This document shows, in pieces, positions 14,370 to 21,242 of a stretch of 21,242 nucleotides of DNA. The stretch spans positions 1 through 21,242 of the IMG/VR virus record IMGVR_UViG_3300034196_000039; one strand, given 5' to 3'. Each line of letters starts with the position of its first letter. The first letter of the stretch is position 1. Source of the DNA: a virus. A program made the translations under genes and the position numbers. The notes beneath the pieces are model-generated. The model ran no database searches. It saw only the letters and a list, made by a program, of their open reading frames with translations, and had not been told where the DNA came from.

Positions 14370-14605
14370 GTGACCTTGTAGAACTCCTGAAAGAAATCCA
14401 TAGCGCTCTTGCAGAGCAACTATTGGCGGATCTTCAGAACTCTGAGAAACGGACTCCTCAGCTCTACTCCCAGATCATCAAGTTTCTCAAAGACAACGGC
14501 ATTGATGCACTTCCGAAAGGTGGCAATCCAGTGTCGTCTCTTTTGGACGGACTGTCTGAGTACGAGAATGAGGTAAATGAGGCGGCTGGCCTTCCACGCC
14601 ACTAA
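14366..14605 (+). CDS. terminase small subunit / DNA maturase A (T7 gp18-like)
   Basis: A 79-residue acidic protein (T7 gp18 is 89). The pattern LLKEIHSALAEQLLADLQNSEKRTPQLYSQIIKFLKDNGIDAL matches T7 gp18 (FLEMLDTAMAQRMLADLSDDERRSPQLYNAINKLLDRHKF), including the conserved R[TS]PQLY turn of the DNA-binding helices. It recognises concatemer junctions and delivers them to the large subunit. The ATG overlaps the holin stop codon (ATGA), so translation is coupled. In T7 the spanin genes 18.5/18.7 follow; here only a 62-base gap with a terminator separates it from the large subunit. Confidence 0.92.
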   Translation: MSDLVELLKEIHSALAEQLLADLQNSEKRTPQLYSQIIKFLKDNGIDALPKGGNPVSSLLDGLSEYENEVNEAAGLPRH

Positions 14606-14625
14606 GAGCCTCATCAAGGAACCCT

Positions 14626-14652
14626 AGGGGGCCCCGCAATGGGGCCTCTTTT
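14626..14652 (+). terminator. terminator between small and large terminase genes
   Basis: A GC-rich stem of six Watson-Crick pairs (ggcccc 14630-14635 with ggggcc 14641-14646), extendable to ten with G-U pairs (14626-14635 with 14641-14650), has a gcaat loop and ends in four T residues. It would lower expression of the large terminase relative to the holin and small subunit. Confidence 0.6.
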
Positions 14653-14667
14653 GCTATTGGAGTCGCA

Positions 14668-16410
14668 ATGACCCAAGCGGAACAAAAGAAGCTCTTAACG
14701 AACTTCGCCCTATTCGTGTGGGTGGTCTGGAAGTCCATTGGGCTTCCCCCTCCGACCCCCATTCAGACAGATATGTCGAATACCCTCCAGGCCCCTCCTT
14801 CCCGGCGATTTATCATCCAGGGGTTCCGAGGAGTGGCTAAGTCATTCATCACCTGTGCTTACGTGGTGTGGATGCTGTGGAGGAACCCGAATCTCAAAAT
14901 CATGATCGTCTCAGCCTCGAAGGAGCGAGCTGATGCGAACGCCCAGTTCATCAAGAAGATCATCGCCGAGCTGGACTTCCTGAGCCACCTAAGAGCCGGG
15001 AAGGACCAGAGGGATACCCAGAACATCTTCGACGTAGGCCCTGCTGCGCCTGACCACTCCCCTTCTGTGAAGTCGGTGGGTATCACGGGCCAGCTCACGG
15101 GTTCTCGCGCAGACATCATCATTGCGGATGACGTGGAGGTCCCCGGCAACTCCTTTACTCAAGCCATGCGGGACAAGCTGTTTGAGCTCGTGAAAGAGTT
15201 TGACGCCATCCTGAAGCCACAAGGTTCGGTCATCTACCTTGGCACTCCCCAGAATGAGATGAGCCTCTACAACGAGCTCCAGGAACGTGGCTACACCACC
15301 TACATTTGGCCTGCCCGATTCCCCTACGATCAGAAGCACAGGGACTCTTACGGAGTACGTCTGGCGCCATACATTGCGCGGATCTTCGATGCTGACCCTG
15401 TGGGCACTGCTGGTACTCCAACGGACCCTAAGCGGTTTGATGATGAGGACCTAAGGGAGCGGGAGCTCTCCTACCGGAAAGCAGGGTTCATGCTCCAGTT
15501 CATGCTGGATACGAGCCTCTCTGACGGTGACAGGTATCCCCTGAAACTCCGCGACTTGATCGTCATGGACGTGAACAAGGAGGAAGGGCCGCTTAAGCTG
15601 ACCTGGATGCCTGCACCGAATCTTCTCCTCCAGGCGCTAGCTTTGGTGGGCCTCAAGGGGGATCGGTACTACGGACCTCACAGCGTCTCTCAGGAGACGG
15701 GCAAGTACACCTACAAGATCCTCGCAGTGGACCCTTCAGGCCGTGGTAAAGATGAGACTGGCTACGCCGTCCTCTACTACCTCAACGGATACATCTACCT
15801 GATGGAAGTTGGGGGTCTCCACGATGGCTACTCAGATGCAACCCTGGCTAGTCTCGCGCAGATCGCCAAGAAGTGGGATGTGAATGAGGTAGTGGTAGAG
15901 GCCAACTTCGGTGACGGCATGTACACCAAACTCCTAACCCCTGTGATGTCCGCTGTTCATCGGTGCCACATCGAGGAGATCAAGAGTAAGGGTCAGAAGG
16001 AAGTCCGCATCATCGACACCCTAGAGCCTCTCGTTACGAATCACCGCTTGGTGGTCAACATGAGAGCCGTGGATCGTGATGCTGAGGCCGTAGCCAACTC
16101 CGAGCACTGCCAGCCCTACCACTCGTTCTTCTACCAGTTCACCCGCTTGACCGCTGACAGGGGCTCCCTGAAGGCTGATGACCGGCTGGACTCGGTGGCT
16201 ATCGGTGTGGCCCGTCTGATCGAGGCCATGGGTGTAGATCCTGATGAAGGCGTGAAGGTTGCCGCTGAGGACTTCATTGAGAACGCTATGGAGGGTCTCA
16301 TGAACGTAGTCACGAAGACTCTGAGTGTCTGTGGGATCTCCATTCAATCCTCCGTCGAGGAAGGCTCTGGGGGAACCTGGGATAGTCTTAATTGGATGGA
16401 TAACAGATAA
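14668..16410 (+). CDS. terminase large subunit / DNA maturase B (T7 gp19-like)
   Basis: A 580-residue packaging motor and nuclease (T7 gp19 is 586). The N-terminal ATPase has a Walker A variant GFRGVAKS at residues 52-59 and a Walker B IIIADD at 150-155 (T7: DIIIADDVE). The coupling-type segment VIYLGTPQNE lies at about 188-196. The C-terminal RNase H-like nuclease has its acidic residues in ILAVDPSGRGKDETG (D355), VVVEANFGDGMY (E411, D416) and DDRLDSVAI (D508). A Shine-Dalgarno TTGGAG lies upstream of ATG 14668. All key residues are present, so packaging should be intact. A TTG in the TTGGAGG that follows its stop is the ribosome site of the next gene, not a start. Confidence 0.95.
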   Translation: MTQAEQKKLLTNFALFVWVVWKSIGLPPPTPIQTDMSNTLQAPPSRRFIIQGFRGVAKSFITCAYVVWMLWRNPNLKIMIVSASKERADANAQFIKKIIAELDFLSHLRAGKDQRDTQNIFDVGPAAPDHSPSVKSVGITGQLTGSRADIIIADDVEVPGNSFTQAMRDKLFELVKEFDAILKPQGSVIYLGTPQNEMSLYNELQERGYTTYIWPARFPYDQKHRDSYGVRLAPYIARIFDADPVGTAGTPTDPKRFDDEDLRERELSYRKAGFMLQFMLDTSLSDGDRYPLKLRDLIVMDVNKEEGPLKLTWMPAPNLLLQALALVGLKGDRYYGPHSVSQETGKYTYKILAVDPSGRGKDETGYAVLYYLNGYIYLMEVGGLHDGYSDATLASLAQIAKKWDVNEVVVEANFGDGMYTKLLTPVMSAVHRCHIEEIKSKGQKEVRIIDTLEPLVTNHRLVVNMRAVDRDAEAVANSEHCQPYHSFFYQFTRLTADRGSLKADDRLDSVAIGVARLIEAMGVDPDEGVKVAAEDFIENAMEGLMNVVTKTLSVCGISIQSSVEEGSGGTWDSLNWMDNR

Positions 16411-16436
16411 TCCTTAGCGACTATTTGGAGGTGCAT

Positions 16437-17150
16437 GTGGGAAAAACTTATGAAGTGACAAAAAAACAGCATTTTCACATGCGCCATATCTTGGATAAGT
16501 TTTCGGACAAGGGCGACCTCGTTATCCTTGAAAAAAACTCAACAGAACTGAAGCCGGCAAAAACAACTGACAGCATATTTCTAGCTGATAGCGCATGGTC
16601 GCAGGAGCTCGAAGGCTCTTATAGTAGAAAGATAGAACGCAGAATAGTTGGGCAAATAAGTCATATATTAAAAGAAGAAACCGTATGTGATCACCCAGCC
16701 ATATCAAACTACCATCTGCTATGGAAGCTGCGCCATCATTACGCGCTGAGCCCTGGAGAAAAAGAGCAATACTATGAAGGGTACGGTGCGGGCGAAATGG
16801 ACCCTGCCTTAAAGCAGATGGCTAATTACCTCGAAAAGCTCCCCATCAATCCTGATGGATCAATCGACGCTATGTTTTCTGTCACTCAAAAAATAAAAAT
16901 CGGCTTCGAAAACTACATCCGCCAGTATCGCGGCATAAAATGGGAAATATTAAAATCATCTACTGGCGGTTTTATTTCTGCTGACTGCTATGACAGAAGC
17001 TTAATATTTCCAATCTCGCCCTCGGTTCTCTTGCTTGGAAAACACAAGGCTAGCAAAAGACCGGTCGAGGCAACACCGGAGCAGATCGAACTGTATAACA
17101 ATGCTGCCTTGGATCAATGTTCTCTTTTTTGTTTTTCCGCCAAACCTTGA
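16437..17150 (+). CDS. DUF4238-like accessory protein, function unknown
   Basis: A 237-residue protein from the GTG at 16437, preceded by GGAGGT at 16427-16432. An in-frame TTG at 16425 lies in the ribosome site and is a poor start. The opening KKQHFHMRHILDKFSDKGDLVILEK has the [RK]QH....YL..F.....l.vy pattern of DUF4238. The middle (ADSAWSQELEGSYSRKIERRI.G) and the end (GGFISADCYDRSLIFPISPSVLLLG) also fit that family, in which an S.D.P.....FPLSP motif is common. There is no signal peptide and no membrane segment. The gene is clearly AT-rich (AAA, ATA, TTT codons) next to terminase, so it is probably acquired. It sits in the T7 19.2/19.3 position, where accessory genes accumulate. A role in lysogenic conversion or phage exclusion is inference only. 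A GATAAT hexamer (16406-16411) could be a -10 box, with no clear -35. Confidence 0.75.
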   Translation: MGKTYEVTKKQHFHMRHILDKFSDKGDLVILEKNSTELKPAKTTDSIFLADSAWSQELEGSYSRKIERRIVGQISHILKEETVCDHPAISNYHLLWKLRHHYALSPGEKEQYYEGYGAGEMDPALKQMANYLEKLPINPDGSIDAMFSVTQKIKIGFENYIRQYRGIKWEILKSSTGGFISADCYDRSLIFPISPSVLLLGKHKASKRPVEATPEQIELYNNAALDQCSLFCFSAKP

Positions 17151-17154
17151 AGAT

Positions 17155-17200
17155 GCCCCTTGGTGAGTCCTTAAGTGGATTCATTGAGGGGCTATTTTTT
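17155..17200 (+). terminator. strong intrinsic terminator after the DUF4238-like gene
   Basis: A 16-bp stem (17155-17170 with 17177-17192, several G-U pairs), loop TTAAGT, followed by six T residues (17195-17200). It begins 4 bases after the stop codon and closes the late transcript, separating it from the lipoprotein gene. Confidence 0.88.
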
Positions 17201-17237: not shown

Positions 17238-17615
17238 ATGAAAGTCCTCAAGGCATCCGCCATCGCTACCCTCGTCTTGGTAGCTCTACAAGGCTGTTCC
17301 AGCCATCGTTTCGTAGCCACGGGCGATGCCCCCAAGGTGGACTCCAAAGGGGCTAATTGCGGGGCTACAGTCCTCATTAGCGTTCCGAGCACTCCTTATC
17401 AGGAGCTTGGAATCTGCTACGCCCAGGTGCCTGGTGGAGGGATGATCTCGGACAATACTCCAGAAGCTATTGAAGAGCTCCAGAAGTGCGCCTGTGAGGC
17501 TGGTGGCGATGCCGTGCTCCTTGGGGGAACGAACGACCAAAGCACTATGACTATGTACGGTTCCACCCAGCAGAACGTCAAGACTCAAGGGATCGTGATT
17601 ATTCGAGGCAAGTAG
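17238..17615 (+). CDS. small outer-membrane lipoprotein, RcsF-like pattern
   Basis: A 125-residue protein with a lipoprotein signal peptide: basic start MKVLK, hydrophobic core and lipobox LQGC, so C20 would be lipidated. S21 at +2 predicts outer-membrane sorting. The mature part has four more cysteines (C41, C60, C84, C86), enough for two disulfides. The arrangement P[YF][QR][ED]LG followed by a cysteine helix and A.DAVLL recalls RcsF (PFRDLGEVSG...ANAVLLHSC) and DUF4156-type envelope proteins; this is a visual resemblance, not a proven homology. AGGAAG at 17227-17232 supports the ATG. The gene sits between a strong terminator and the structured right end, apparently with its own promoter, which fits a gene used in the lysogen. 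An Rz1-like spanin role is less likely: no Rz partner is seen and it is not proline-rich. Confidence 0.85.
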   Translation: MKVLKASAIATLVLVALQGCSSHRFVATGDAPKVDSKGANCGATVLISVPSTPYQELGICYAQVPGGGMISDNTPEAIEELQKCACEAGGDAVLLGGTNDQSTMTMYGSTQQNVKTQGIVIIRGK

Positions 17616-17692: not shown

Positions 17693-17732
17693 GTTTCTCC
17701 CCACCTATAAGAGTGGTCGTTTCTCCCCACCT
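17693..17732 (+). repeat. 14-bp direct repeat, two copies, 26-bp period
   Basis: gtttctccccacct occurs at 17693-17706 and again at 17719-17732, exact. The copies are followed by ataagag and tagatc respectively. No third copy was seen in the window. Confidence 0.85.
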
Positions 17733-17740
17733 TAGATCCC

Positions 17741-18146: not shown

Positions 18147-19811
18147 TCAAATCAAGCCAGCTTCCCTCGCAATACTCGGGATCTTGCTGATCTCTGCGAC
18201 CAACCGCTCCATGGGCATACTCCCATAGTCCCGGCTTACCGAACCGTCAGAGTGCCCGGTCAGTGCGTCATGGACCTCTTCGGGGATCCCTGCACCTCGA
18301 CATAAAGTCTTGAACGTGTGCCGGAAGCCGTGGCTAGGAGAGGCAGTGGTCTCAAGCTTTACCACTCCGCGTAGATACTTGGTCCAATGCTTCCCGAAGC
18401 CCTTCCCGTACCATCCCTCAGCATTGGGAGTGAGTTGAGGGAATAGCTGACCACCCTTCGGGACCCCTTTGACGTAATCCAGGAATCCTAAGGTGATGAG
18501 GTCTGGATGCAAGGGCACAGCTCTCCGCGATCCCACAGTCTTCACAGTGCGATCATCATCGTCATCAGCCTCAAGGATGCTTAGGTAAGAGACTCCTTCA
18601 GGGCTCTTCTTCACATCCCGCGCAAACAACTGAGTCAGCTCCTCACGACGAGCTCCAGTGTAGAGAGCCAGTAATGGAACCCAGTAGAGGGACCTTCCGA
18701 GATCCTTTTTGGGCGGTGACCAACCTTCACTAGTGTAGAGTTGGCTGCTGAAGATCACCTTCAGCTCCTCTCGTGTGTAGTCCTTCCGGCGTCTAGAACC
18801 ACCAGCCTTGGCGATGCTCTTGGCGAGTCTTGTGGCAATCCCAGAGGCCGTCACTGGGTTCTCTGTAATGAACCCCAACCGGATGCCAAACCCGAGGACC
18901 GCCGAAAGGGTTCTCAACCGAGTCTTGATGGTCGCAGCCTGGAGCGTGGGTAGCCCTTCCTCCTGAGCCCTCTGGATCTGCTGTCTGGCATTCAATCCAC
19001 GGATACCATCCCCTTTAGAGGGCATCTGCTGGAGTGCCATGCGATAGTCCTGGATCGTCTGCCGGTCGATCTGACCCACGGGGAGGTCCCCGAAGAGCTC
19101 AATGAACTTGAGGACCACTGCCTGATATTCATCGCAGGTCTTCAAAGCTGTCCGGGTCTTCCCTTCAGTAGCCAGCTTGTCTTCCTTGAACTGCGCAAAG
19201 ACCTCAGACAATAGATGCCGCTTCGGCTTCCCTTCGACCTTTAGGGGCTCCTGTGGAAGCACGTCAGGCTTGAGGGTCCAATCCCCACTGTTACGGGAGA
19301 GTGCGGTATCTGACAGCTTCAGCAGGTGCGCCGAGAAGGCTCCCACCAGCTCTTCATAAAGAGGTGCCGACTGGGGGACTGGAGGCAGCTTGTGAGCATT
19401 CAGAGCTTCGCTGATGTAGGGCCTGACTAGGCCAGAGACCTTCTCGATGTCATCGAAGTAGTGGCGCAGACTAACCAATCCTTCACCGGCTATTGGGTAA
19501 AGAAAGGCCGTGAAGTCTCCGCTGGACTCCATTCGGGAGAGCTCTTTAGTGAACCACCGGCTGGCAAGCTGCTGGACATCTCTGGAGGTCAGGATTGACC
19601 CAGTGTCCCGCTGAGATCGTGCCAGTGCGAACCGCTCTTCTGATTCCACCCAGGCGGCGGCAAAGAGGGGCTTGGCAGTTAGAAGATCCTTCGTTCCCAG
19701 GGTACGTTTGAACATTCCCCCGAGGATCCCTTGAAGGTCCTTCGGAACCTTCCTACGGAGGTAGTAAACGCCAGTCCTTGGGTCTTTCCAGGGTGTAGCC
19801 ATATGTGCCAT
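18147..19811 (-). CDS. int: tyrosine recombinase, phage integrase
   Basis: About 554 residues (558 from an in-frame GTG at 19823). It catalyses site-specific integration and excision between attP and the tRNA-Ser attB. The N terminus ATPWKDPRTGVYYLRRKVPKDLQ is a DUF6538-type arm-binding domain. A core-binding SAM-like helical region lies mid-protein (EVFAQFKEDKL...LFGDLPVGQIDRQTIQDY). The catalytic domain shows Arg I in ALYTGARREELTQLF, HGFRHTF (His498 and Arg501 by the longer numbering), the LTGHSDGSVSRDYGS box with His524, and nucleophile Tyr533. All catalytic residues are present. Start choice is uncertain among GTG 19823, ATG 19811 and ATG 19802; none has a strong ribosome site. A TATAAA on the - strand (19851-19846) is a candidate -10. 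The gene opposes the late genes and lies next to the tRNA, as expected for an integrase at attR. Confidence 0.93.
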   Translation of the reverse strand: MAHMATPWKDPRTGVYYLRRKVPKDLQGILGGMFKRTLGTKDLLTAKPLFAAAWVESEERFALARSQRDTGSILTSRDVQQLASRWFTKELSRMESSGDFTAFLYPIAGEGLVSLRHYFDDIEKVSGLVRPYISEALNAHKLPPVPQSAPLYEELVGAFSAHLLKLSDTALSRNSGDWTLKPDVLPQEPLKVEGKPKRHLLSEVFAQFKEDKLATEGKTRTALKTCDEYQAVVLKFIELFGDLPVGQIDRQTIQDYRMALQQMPSKGDGIRGLNARQQIQRAQEEGLPTLQAATIKTRLRTLSAVLGFGIRLGFITENPVTASGIATRLAKSIAKAGGSRRRKDYTREELKVIFSSQLYTSEGWSPPKKDLGRSLYWVPLLALYTGARREELTQLFARDVKKSPEGVSYLSILEADDDDDRTVKTVGSRRAVPLHPDLITLGFLDYVKGVPKGGQLFPQLTPNAEGWYGKGFGKHWTKYLRGVVKLETTASPSHGFRHTFKTLCRGAGIPEEVHDALTGHSDGSVSRDYGSMPMERLVAEISKIPSIAREAGLI

Positions 19812-19864
19812 AGGTGTACCCACTCGGTGTACTCATAGAGCGGGCTTTATAGGGGTCCAGATAC

Positions 19865-19899
19865 CAAAAAGCCCCTGATCTCTAATGAAATCAAGGGCT
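19865..19899 (-). terminator. intrinsic terminator of tRNA-Ser
   Basis: Read on the - strand: agcccttgat (19899-19890), a 10-base loop, atcaggggct (19879-19870, one G-U pair), then five T residues. It stops tRNA transcription before the integrase gene. It lies on the prophage side of the tRNA 3' end, so it was either carried in by the phage or is part of a long att identity segment. Confidence 0.85.
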
Positions 19900-19907
19900 T
19901 CAGAATT

Positions 19908-19997
19908 TGGCGGTGAAGGAGAGATTCGAACTCTCGATACAATTTCTTGTATACACACTTTCCAGGCGTGCTCCTTAAGCCACTCGGACACTTCACC
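19908..19997 (-). tRNA. tRNA-Ser (GGA), prophage attachment target
   Basis: Ninety bases including an encoded CCA end. The acceptor arms ggtgaag (19997-19991) and cttcacc (19918-19912) pair fully. The anticodon arm is CACGC-CTGGAAA-GTGTG with anticodon GGA at 19963-19961. A long variable arm (GTATACAAG...TTGTATC) marks a class II tRNA, here serine, and the T arm GAGAG-TTCGAAT-CTCTC is intact. The 3' end faces the integrase and the phage, the usual arrangement when a phage integrates into a tRNA gene and restores its 3' part. The att core therefore probably lies within the T-arm to acceptor end; the second copy (attL) is outside the window. Confidence 0.95.
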
Positions 19998-20035
19998 GTA
20001 TCTCGTCAAACAAGTTCTGTCTGTCGAGGCGCGCT

Positions 20036-20064
20036 AATGTAGTCGAAAGCTTTTCCGATGGCAA
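20036..20064 (-). promoter_or_regulatory. sigma70 promoter of tRNA-Ser
   Basis: Read on the - strand: TTGCCA (20064-20059), a 17-base spacer and TACATT (20041-20036), followed by a GC-rich discriminator (AGCGCGCC) typical of growth-regulated stable-RNA promoters. An A-rich stretch just upstream (GAAAAAAATAT) looks like an UP element. The start would lie about 30-40 bases before the mature tRNA 5' end. Confidence 0.65.
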
Positions 20065-20220
20065 ATATTTTTTTCAGAATTTTCATGCGGTTAGCGATTT
20101 AGTCGCTCCAGCGCGTTTGAGGCCATGGCAAACCTGCCAATCTCCGGCTTCGCGCCCTCTTCTATATAGAAGGGAATGCGCGGCGGGTGTGGCGGGCCAG
20201 GCTTGCCGGGCGAGCAAAGG

Positions 20221-20240
20221 GTGACTGACGGGTCAGTCAC
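20221..20240. promoter_or_regulatory. perfect palindrome, probable TetR-family operator
   Basis: GTGACTGAC, two bases (GG), then GTCAGTCAC: 9-bp arms with perfect symmetry, 66 bases before the crotonase start. Size, tight spacing and the GAC/GTC-containing arms are like operators of dimeric TetR-family repressors. The cognate regulator is not in the window. Confidence 0.5.
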
Positions 20241-20305
20241 GGCGCTTTACCTGGCCGGTGGTGGTGGGTAACGTCTGCCTCATCTTTCATACAAGGAATA
20301 GCGTC

Positions 20306-20995
20306 ATGAGTGAGTTGATTTCCTACCACCTCGAAGACGGTATCGCGACCCTGACCTTGAGCAATGGCAAGGTCAATGCCATCTCGCCGGATGTGATTGC
20401 TGCGTTTAATGCTGCACTGGATCAGGCGGTCACCGATCGTGCGGTGGTGATCATTACCGGTACGCCGGGGATTCTGTCGGGCGGTTATGATTTGAAGGTG
20501 ATGACGGCCGGCCCTAAAGAAGCCGTGGCGCTGGTCACTGCCGGCTCGACCCTGGCGCGCCGCCTGTTGTCGCACCCGTTCCCGGTGATCGTCGCGTGCC
20601 CTGGGCATGCGGTGGCCAAGGGTGCGTTCCTGCTGTTGTCGGTGGATTACCGCATTGGTGTCGACGGCCCGTTCAGTATTGGCCTGAACGAAGTGCAGAT
20701 CGGCATGACCATGCACCACGCCGGTATCGAGTTGGCTCGTGATCGTCTGCGCAAGTCGGCGTTCCACCGTTCGGTGATTAACGGTGAGATGTTCAATCCG
20801 CAGAGCGCAGTGGACGCAGGCTTCCTCGACGTCGTGGTGTCGCCCGAGGAACTGCAAGGCACGGCGTTGGCGGCGGCTCGCCAGTTGAAGAAGATCAACA
20901 TGACCGCGCACAAAAACACCAAGCTCAAAGTGCGTAAGGCGCTGCTGGAGACCCTGGACAACGCGATCATCCAGGATCAGGAGCATTTGGTTTAA
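20306..20995 (+). CDS. crotonase / enoyl-CoA hydratase family protein (host)
   Basis: A 229-residue crotonase-fold protein acting on a CoA thioester, probably in fatty-acid or amino-acid breakdown. The ATG at 20306 has AAGGA at 20292-20296. An upstream in-frame start at 20258 is disfavoured because the ribosome site fits 20306. Family landmarks are SNGKVNAIS (the usual N.lna.s motif), ILSGGYDLKVM for the first oxyanion-hole segment (usually AG.D...), CPGHAVAKGAFLLLSVDYRIG for the second, and GLNEVQIGM in place of GLPE. The second segment lacks the glutamate of the usual GGG.E (AKGAF here), while a glutamate is kept in GLNEV, so hydratase activity is uncertain and an isomerase, hydrolase or other crotonase reaction is possible. 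It is shorter than typical hydratases (about 257 residues). It is a single gene with its own terminator. Confidence 0.9.
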   Translation: MSELISYHLEDGIATLTLSNGKVNAISPDVIAAFNAALDQAVTDRAVVIITGTPGILSGGYDLKVMTAGPKEAVALVTAGSTLARRLLSHPFPVIVACPGHAVAKGAFLLLSVDYRIGVDGPFSIGLNEVQIGMTMHHAGIELARDRLRKSAFHRSVINGEMFNPQSAVDAGFLDVVVSPEELQGTALAAARQLKKINMTAHKNTKLKVRKALLETLDNAIIQDQEHLV

Positions 20996-21014
20996 GACCA
21001 CACGCGCTGCACCG

Positions 21015-21043
21015 AAAAGCCCGACCGTCGTGTCGGGCTTTTT
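21015..21043 (+). terminator. intrinsic terminator after crotonase gene
   Basis: A 7-bp GC stem (gcccgac 21019-21025 with gtcgggc 21032-21038), preceded by four A and followed by five T residues, 20 bases after the stop codon. The flanking A and T runs may let it work in both directions. Confidence 0.9.
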
Positions 21044-21209
21044 CATACGCGTATTGTTTAAAAGCCTACAACCGCTCTAGACCGCGTCTGACCCATAAGT
21101 CGGAAACATGCGCTCAAACATCGGCTATTTCCTACCTCTATAGCGGCAATTGCCGAAAACAGTGCACATCCGTACACTGCGCCACCTTTTGTCCCGGTGG
21201 GGCCTGTAA

Positions 21210-21242
21210 ATGCTGTTTGTGTTTCGTATGTTATTGATGGGT
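21210..21242 (+). CDS. possible start of a plsC-like acyltransferase gene, cut by window end
   Basis: An ATG at 21210 opens a frame MLFVFRMLLMG that runs off the window. GGTGGGG at 21196-21202 is a plausible ribosome site. The hydrophobic N-terminal sequence resembles the start of 1-acyl-sn-glycerol-3-phosphate acyltransferases (E. coli PlsC begins MLYIFRLI). Eleven codons are too few for certainty. A 12-bp palindrome, CGGCAATTGCCG, lies upstream near 21145 in the otherwise featureless gap from 21044. Confidence 0.35.
   Translation, partial: MLFVFRMLLMG

Follow-up and report, generated by a model that had tools for sequence, protein, structure and literature searches.

The right end of a T7-like Pseudomonas prophage

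The stretch of DNA analysed here (the window) is a virus record of 21,242 bases that comprises the right half of a T7-like prophage together with a flank of its host chromosome. A tail fibre, a T7-type holin and the small and large terminase subunits are encoded in the window, while the genes that we take to encode the capsid, the tubular tail and the internal virion proteins are named by gene order and general knowledge. The principal features are listed in Table 1. In Pseudomonas phages 3MF5 and phTUNSv an integrase gene occupies the equivalent position relative to its neighbours. The sequence from about position 19857 onwards shows matches of up to 90% to Pseudomonas chromosomes over 1.4 kb, which identifies the host as Pseudomonas and places the end of the prophage near 19.85 kb. 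The flank itself (19857–21242) carries the tRNA-Ser(GGA), followed by an enoyl-CoA hydratase-like gene.

Table 1. Features at the right end of the prophage, in window coordinates.
Feature	Position	Strand	Evidence or remark
T7-like terminase large subunit (gp19)	14668..16410	+	Pfam PF22530, E 3.8e-42; PHROG 38, E 1.6e-119
Shine-Dalgarno sequence GGAGG, 5 nt ahead of the GTG	16427..16431	+	Read from the sequence
DUF4238-type cargo gene, 237 aa, GTG start	16437..17150	+	ORF, Pfam, profile homology
Intrinsic terminator hairpin with T-run	17155-17192	+	Fold -30.7 kcal/mol, z -7.7
Candidate phage-RNA-polymerase promoter TTTCTCCCCACCTATAAGAG	17694..17713	+	Sequence and pattern search; downstream of the cargo
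Tyrosine integrase of the prophage	18147..19823	-	PHROG 1 integrase, E 1.6e-31
tRNA-Ser(GGA)	19908-19997	-	Directly adjoins the integrase

The carrier is a temperate T7-like (Autographiviridae) Pseudomonas prophage, and it shares its late gene order and the possession of a tyrosine integrase with the temperate T7-like Pseudomonas phages LUZ100, 3MF5 and phTUNSv. In 3MF5 and phTUNSv (Warsawvirus) the integrase follows the terminase on the other strand, as it does in the carrier, whereas in LUZ100 it is located upstream of the RNA polymerase (PMC10134795). The interval between the small and large terminase genes of the carrier (14605–14668) contains a terminator-like hairpin only and is without Rz/Rz1 spanin genes; spanin genes are found between the two terminase genes in Pseudomonas phages 3MF5, phTUNSv and phiPsa17.

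The terminase gene forms the left border of an insertion that consists of a single gene. This cargo gene starts 26 bp behind the terminase stop, with no terminator between the two, and the TTG at position 16425 that opens its reading frame overlaps its Shine-Dalgarno sequence. Its GC content is 43.3%, against 55.8% in the terminase gene, and its GC3 is 0.45 against 0.70. The step in GC content is sharp, occurs at about 16.40 and 17.20 kb, and is confined to the cargo interval. The codon fit of the gene to the phage is -0.147, compared with a mean of +0.079 in 81 same-length slices of other late genes, and lies below that of every one of the 81 slices. An earlier note, made from the sequence alone, had described a gene with its own Shine-Dalgarno sequence and a base composition unlike that of the terminase, and both descriptions hold. 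The gene is accessory, foreign in composition and missing at the same site in close relatives, which are the features expected of a moron or cargo gene.

The nearest relative is a prophage of Pseudomonas sp. HMWF032, whose terminase is 81% identical to that of the carrier. The cargo gene is missing there, and the terminase stop leads straight into a terminator. A DUF4238 gene after the terminase was found in none of five further Pseudomonas T7-like prophages, in which the terminase match was full-length or nearly so in four and partial in one. No such gene follows the terminase in the T7-like phages 3MF5, phTUNSv, phiPsa17 and IME-DE1 either; 3MF5 and phTUNSv differ from the carrier in having no cargo of the DUF4238 kind at this point. 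From these sequence comparisons, an insertion in the carrier's lineage is the simplest reading. The earlier note had called the gene a recently gained cargo: its gain is borne out by its absence from the examined relatives and its distinct composition, while "recently" can be read in a relative sense only. The outcome that the note had named as refuting this, presence of the gene in every relative with codon usage to match, was looked for and not found, the gene being missing in the relatives examined. The note had also suggested comparing the same locus in related prophages for alternative cargo. The right ends of these prophages do vary, but in none of the five is an intact terminase separated from a terminator by a comparable gene, and a same-site cargo hotspot is not supported.

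The strong terminator behind the gene is present, as had been noted, but it is not evidence that the cargo forms a unit of its own. The cargo-less HMWF032 prophage has a terminator at the same point, so that the hairpin is probably the phage's own post-terminase late terminator, and the idea of a terminator brought in by the cargo was rejected. A scan of the plus strand for sigma-70-like promoters of the cargo gave none at the scan threshold (best match 8/12), which makes expression of the cargo in the lysogen doubtful. Downstream of the late genes, positions 17694–17737 contain two near-copies of TTTCTCCCCACCT, the first continuing with ATAAGAG and the second, partial, at 17720. Judged by their sequence, these repeats are likely candidate phage RNA polymerase promoters of unusual sequence, and the position of the first agrees with that of annotated or visible phage promoters after the terminase in relatives.

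A further open reading frame of 125 aa (17238–17615), encoding a putative lipoprotein, is situated between the late terminator and a gp19.5-like gene. Neither a Pfam family above threshold nor a PHROG match was obtained for it, the phage records and the fetched loci contain no relative, and it is a second orphan cargo candidate.

The cargo protein and its relatives

The Pfam DUF4238 model (PF14022) matches the cargo protein with 24.5 bits (E 2.1e-5) over its C-terminal part only, which falls below the curated cut-off of 27 bits; several of its relatives likewise fall just under this cut-off. Homology over the full length was found when a profile of ten proteins of the cargo clade was compared by hhalign with a profile of seven canonical DUF4238 proteins (E 6.8e-14 over 214 columns). 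The real profile of the clade scored 95 and that of the three closest proteins 64, while none of the 100 column-shuffled controls run for each exceeded 24. In addition, a full-length homologue on a Burkholderia plasmid carries a DUF4238 annotation. A motif scan with HHYVPQxYL yielded three further canonical DUF4238 loci, which entered the alignment only.

The residues common to the cargo protein, the protein from the P2 hotspot (see below) and other canonical members are His12, Leu19, Phe22, Glu67, Arg99, Phe179-Ile180, Asp183, Pro192, Leu199 and Asn221 (cargo protein numbering). The motifs of DUF4238 are present, namely an N-terminal (Q/H)H with L..F, a Glu, an Arg, FI-x-x-D, P-(I/V/L)-S and a near-C-terminal Asn. 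In the short clade, the loop that separates FI-x-x-D from P-I/V-S in canonical members is missing, and so is the P of SD-N/H-P. Judged by profile and motif homology, the cargo protein is a divergent, short-form member of the DUF4238 superfamily. The label "DUF4238-like" in the earlier note is therefore upheld by the profile search, with a Pfam score that is sub-threshold and a full-length profile homology far above that of the shuffled controls.

Searches for solved structures by sequence and by profile returned nothing meaningful for the cargo protein. AlphaFold models reached a mean pLDDT of 37.8 for the cargo protein alone and 47.2 for the P2-hotspot homologue with a 7-row alignment, values that are too poor for a claim about the fold. 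No transmembrane segment or signal peptide was found in the cargo protein, the highest 19-residue hydropathy being 0.9.

The closest homologue is encoded in another Pseudomonas genome and is 43% identical over its full length. The integrated element in which it is located is AT-rich (43% GC) and contains genes of relaxase-like and replication-initiator-like type. There the homologue overlaps an upstream 260-aa open reading frame with a PD-...-ELKTK-like motif (L126:8749-10261), and the pair is possibly a two-gene nuclease and DUF4238 cassette in an integrated mobilizable element. The 260-aa neighbour has no significant Pfam or PADLOC match. Homologues on plasmids of P. coronafaciens are 30% identical to the cargo protein, and those on Klebsiella and Burkholderia plasmids about 23–24% identical; the plasmids carrying relatives come from Pseudomonas, Burkholderia, Klebsiella and Pantoea. 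Conjugative or mobilizable plasmids carry other relatives, and further ones, at loci that also seem to be mobile, have a DNA methyltransferase gene or recombinase-type genes as neighbours. The Klebsiella plasmid relative adjoins an HNH gene and an NYN gene that matches HEC-09 of PADLOC, the Pantoea relative adjoins ssb and psiB, and a Pseudomonas plasmid relative is found near toxin-antitoxin and SOS-peptidase genes. These short-form proteins resemble the cargo protein in full-length homology (from 43% down to about 23% identity) and in the order of their motifs. They differ from it in their carriers, which are plasmids or integrated elements, and some of them have nuclease-like or NYN genes next to them, whereas the phage copy stands alone.

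Among 50,697 phage records, no convincing homologue of the cargo was found at useful similarity. A few weak tblastn matches, mostly in large Pseudomonas phages, were discarded; in Aura, the one that was examined, the matching stretch is antisense to the annotated genes. Scans of viral contigs with the cargo protein and three of its relatives also gave no homologue.

Comparison with the DUF4238 defence system of P2-like prophages

A single DUF4238 protein encoded in the A–Q hotspot of P2-like prophages confers strong resistance to T7, its molecular function being unknown (Rousset et al., 2022; PMC9122126). Later surveys include DUF4238 among the defence systems of Pseudomonas (PMC10855318; PMC12629846), and PADLOC contains a DUF4238 defence model, DUF4238-Pers (PDLC03000). 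The defence function that the earlier note had thought might be undescribed was thus already published in 2022, included in PADLOC and counted in surveys. In Escherichia phage pro483, a DUF4238 gene lies in precisely this A–Q interval. Its product matches DUF4238-Pers over residues 1–309 of 309 with 725 bits, although it may not be the very protein that was assayed, and copies of the gene that are at least 99% identical occur in 14 of 5,426 complete genomes of E. coli.

The cargo protein gave no match to PDLC03000 at E values up to 10, and a survey relying on that model would therefore overlook such a variant. The relationship between the P2-hotspot protein and the cargo protein is distant, which speaks against a shared role: pairwise, they are 19% identical over a C-terminal stretch (E 0.13), and 17% identical in the alignment. 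Like the P2-hotspot system, the cargo is a stand-alone single gene of the same superfamily, borne by a prophage at an accessory locus, and its product retains the conserved His, Glu, Arg, FI-x-x-Asp, Pro and Asn positions. Unlike the P2-hotspot protein, it has 237 instead of 309 aa and is without the segment after the Asp motif. The locations also differ, the cargo being on the late strand of a T7-like prophage and the P2 gene between the replication gene A and the portal gene Q. The cargo probably belongs to a kind of anti-phage gene that is already known, and its location is unusual.

Possible roles of the cargo gene

Most likely, the cargo is an exchangeable gene with a role in anti-phage exclusion. 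The exclusion or defence role proposed in the earlier note remains the leading hypothesis, a relative with an anti-T7 effect having been published. We hold it to be reasonably probable that the gene, inserted behind the terminase stop and ahead of the late terminator, is a horizontally acquired, single-gene exclusion cargo of the DUF4238 superfamily. Its product would be a soluble cytoplasmic effector, and probably an enzyme, since six residues are conserved across both clades (His12, Glu67, Arg99, Asp183, Pro192 and Asn221). Surface exclusion is unlikely for a soluble protein without a transmembrane or other hydrophobic segment. By analogy with the P2-hotspot protein, it may act after adsorption, within the cell, against incoming phages and first of all against T7-like ones. 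Late transcription reading through into the gene, or a weak promoter that was not recognised here, could provide its expression, to the benefit of the lysogen or of the producing cell against competitors.

A T7-like phage that encodes a factor of the anti-T7 type would need immunity to it. In a more specific form of the exclusion reading, which we put forward as doubtful, a temperate T7-like phage uses an anti-T7 relative from its late unit against T7-like competitors and would itself be immune through timing or an insensitive target.

The main rival is a role in the late lytic phase, because no sigma-70-like promoter was found and the cargo would be read with the late operon. The gene would then be a host-takeover or late lytic accessory gene, expressed from the late transcript only, whose product, during the lytic cycle of the phage itself, would target the host or prevent secondary infection instead of defending the lysogen. 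Its location on the late strand, 26 bp behind the terminase and ahead of the late terminator, is in keeping with such a role. The homologues, however, belong to plasmids and to an integrated mobilizable element, neither of which passes through a lytic late phase, and the characterised DUF4238 member is a stand-alone defence gene; we consider a purely late lytic function rather improbable.

The gene might instead counter host defences or stabilise the element that carries it, and this would explain some of the neighbours of its relatives, such as ssb and psiB in Pantoea and the toxin-antitoxin and SOS-peptidase genes on the Pseudomonas plasmid. Other relatives, however, lie beside nuclease-type or HEC candidate defence genes, the DUF4238 protein that was assayed is defensive (PMC9122126), and a late position is a poor place for an anti-defence gene, all of which makes a function in anti-defence or maintenance quite unlikely. 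There is a similarly small chance that the carrier acquired a DUF4238 gene by accident and keeps it without selection, as the single occurrence among T7-like phages and the lack of a detectable promoter might suggest. An intact frame of 237 codons, with its own Shine-Dalgarno sequence and the conserved residues of both clades, argues against such a neutral passenger. A structural or morphogenetic protein of the virion, for which only the position in the late gene block after the terminase speaks, is very improbable given its foreign composition, its plasmid-borne homologues and its absence from all examined T7-like relatives and, at useful similarity, from the 50,697 phage records.

If the more specific reading, exclusion of T7-like competitors, is true, current defence catalogues would be blind to an anti-phage family, the short-form DUF4238 clade. 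An anti-T7 phenotype has been reported for DUF4238, and a divergent copy inside a T7-like prophage offers a natural test for the target of the protein. The carrier must escape its own weapon, and a comparison of carrier and victim phages should therefore indicate the target or the trigger. The short-form clade, which is present on many plasmids and is missed by both the PADLOC model and the Pfam cut-off, deserves anti-phage screening.

Two other right ends contain possible cargo of different kinds. In a T7-like prophage of another genome (G263), a 242-aa minus-strand open reading frame of lower GC content lies 423–1151 bases after the terminase, and is possibly a nuclease-type cargo in a similar right-end position. 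A viral contig contains a 362-aa open reading frame beginning with MSEVKKFQVFVSSTYIDLIEHRREIMQALLEL, 1.6 kb after a T7-like terminase, which is a possible cargo and resembles DUF4062-type proteins.
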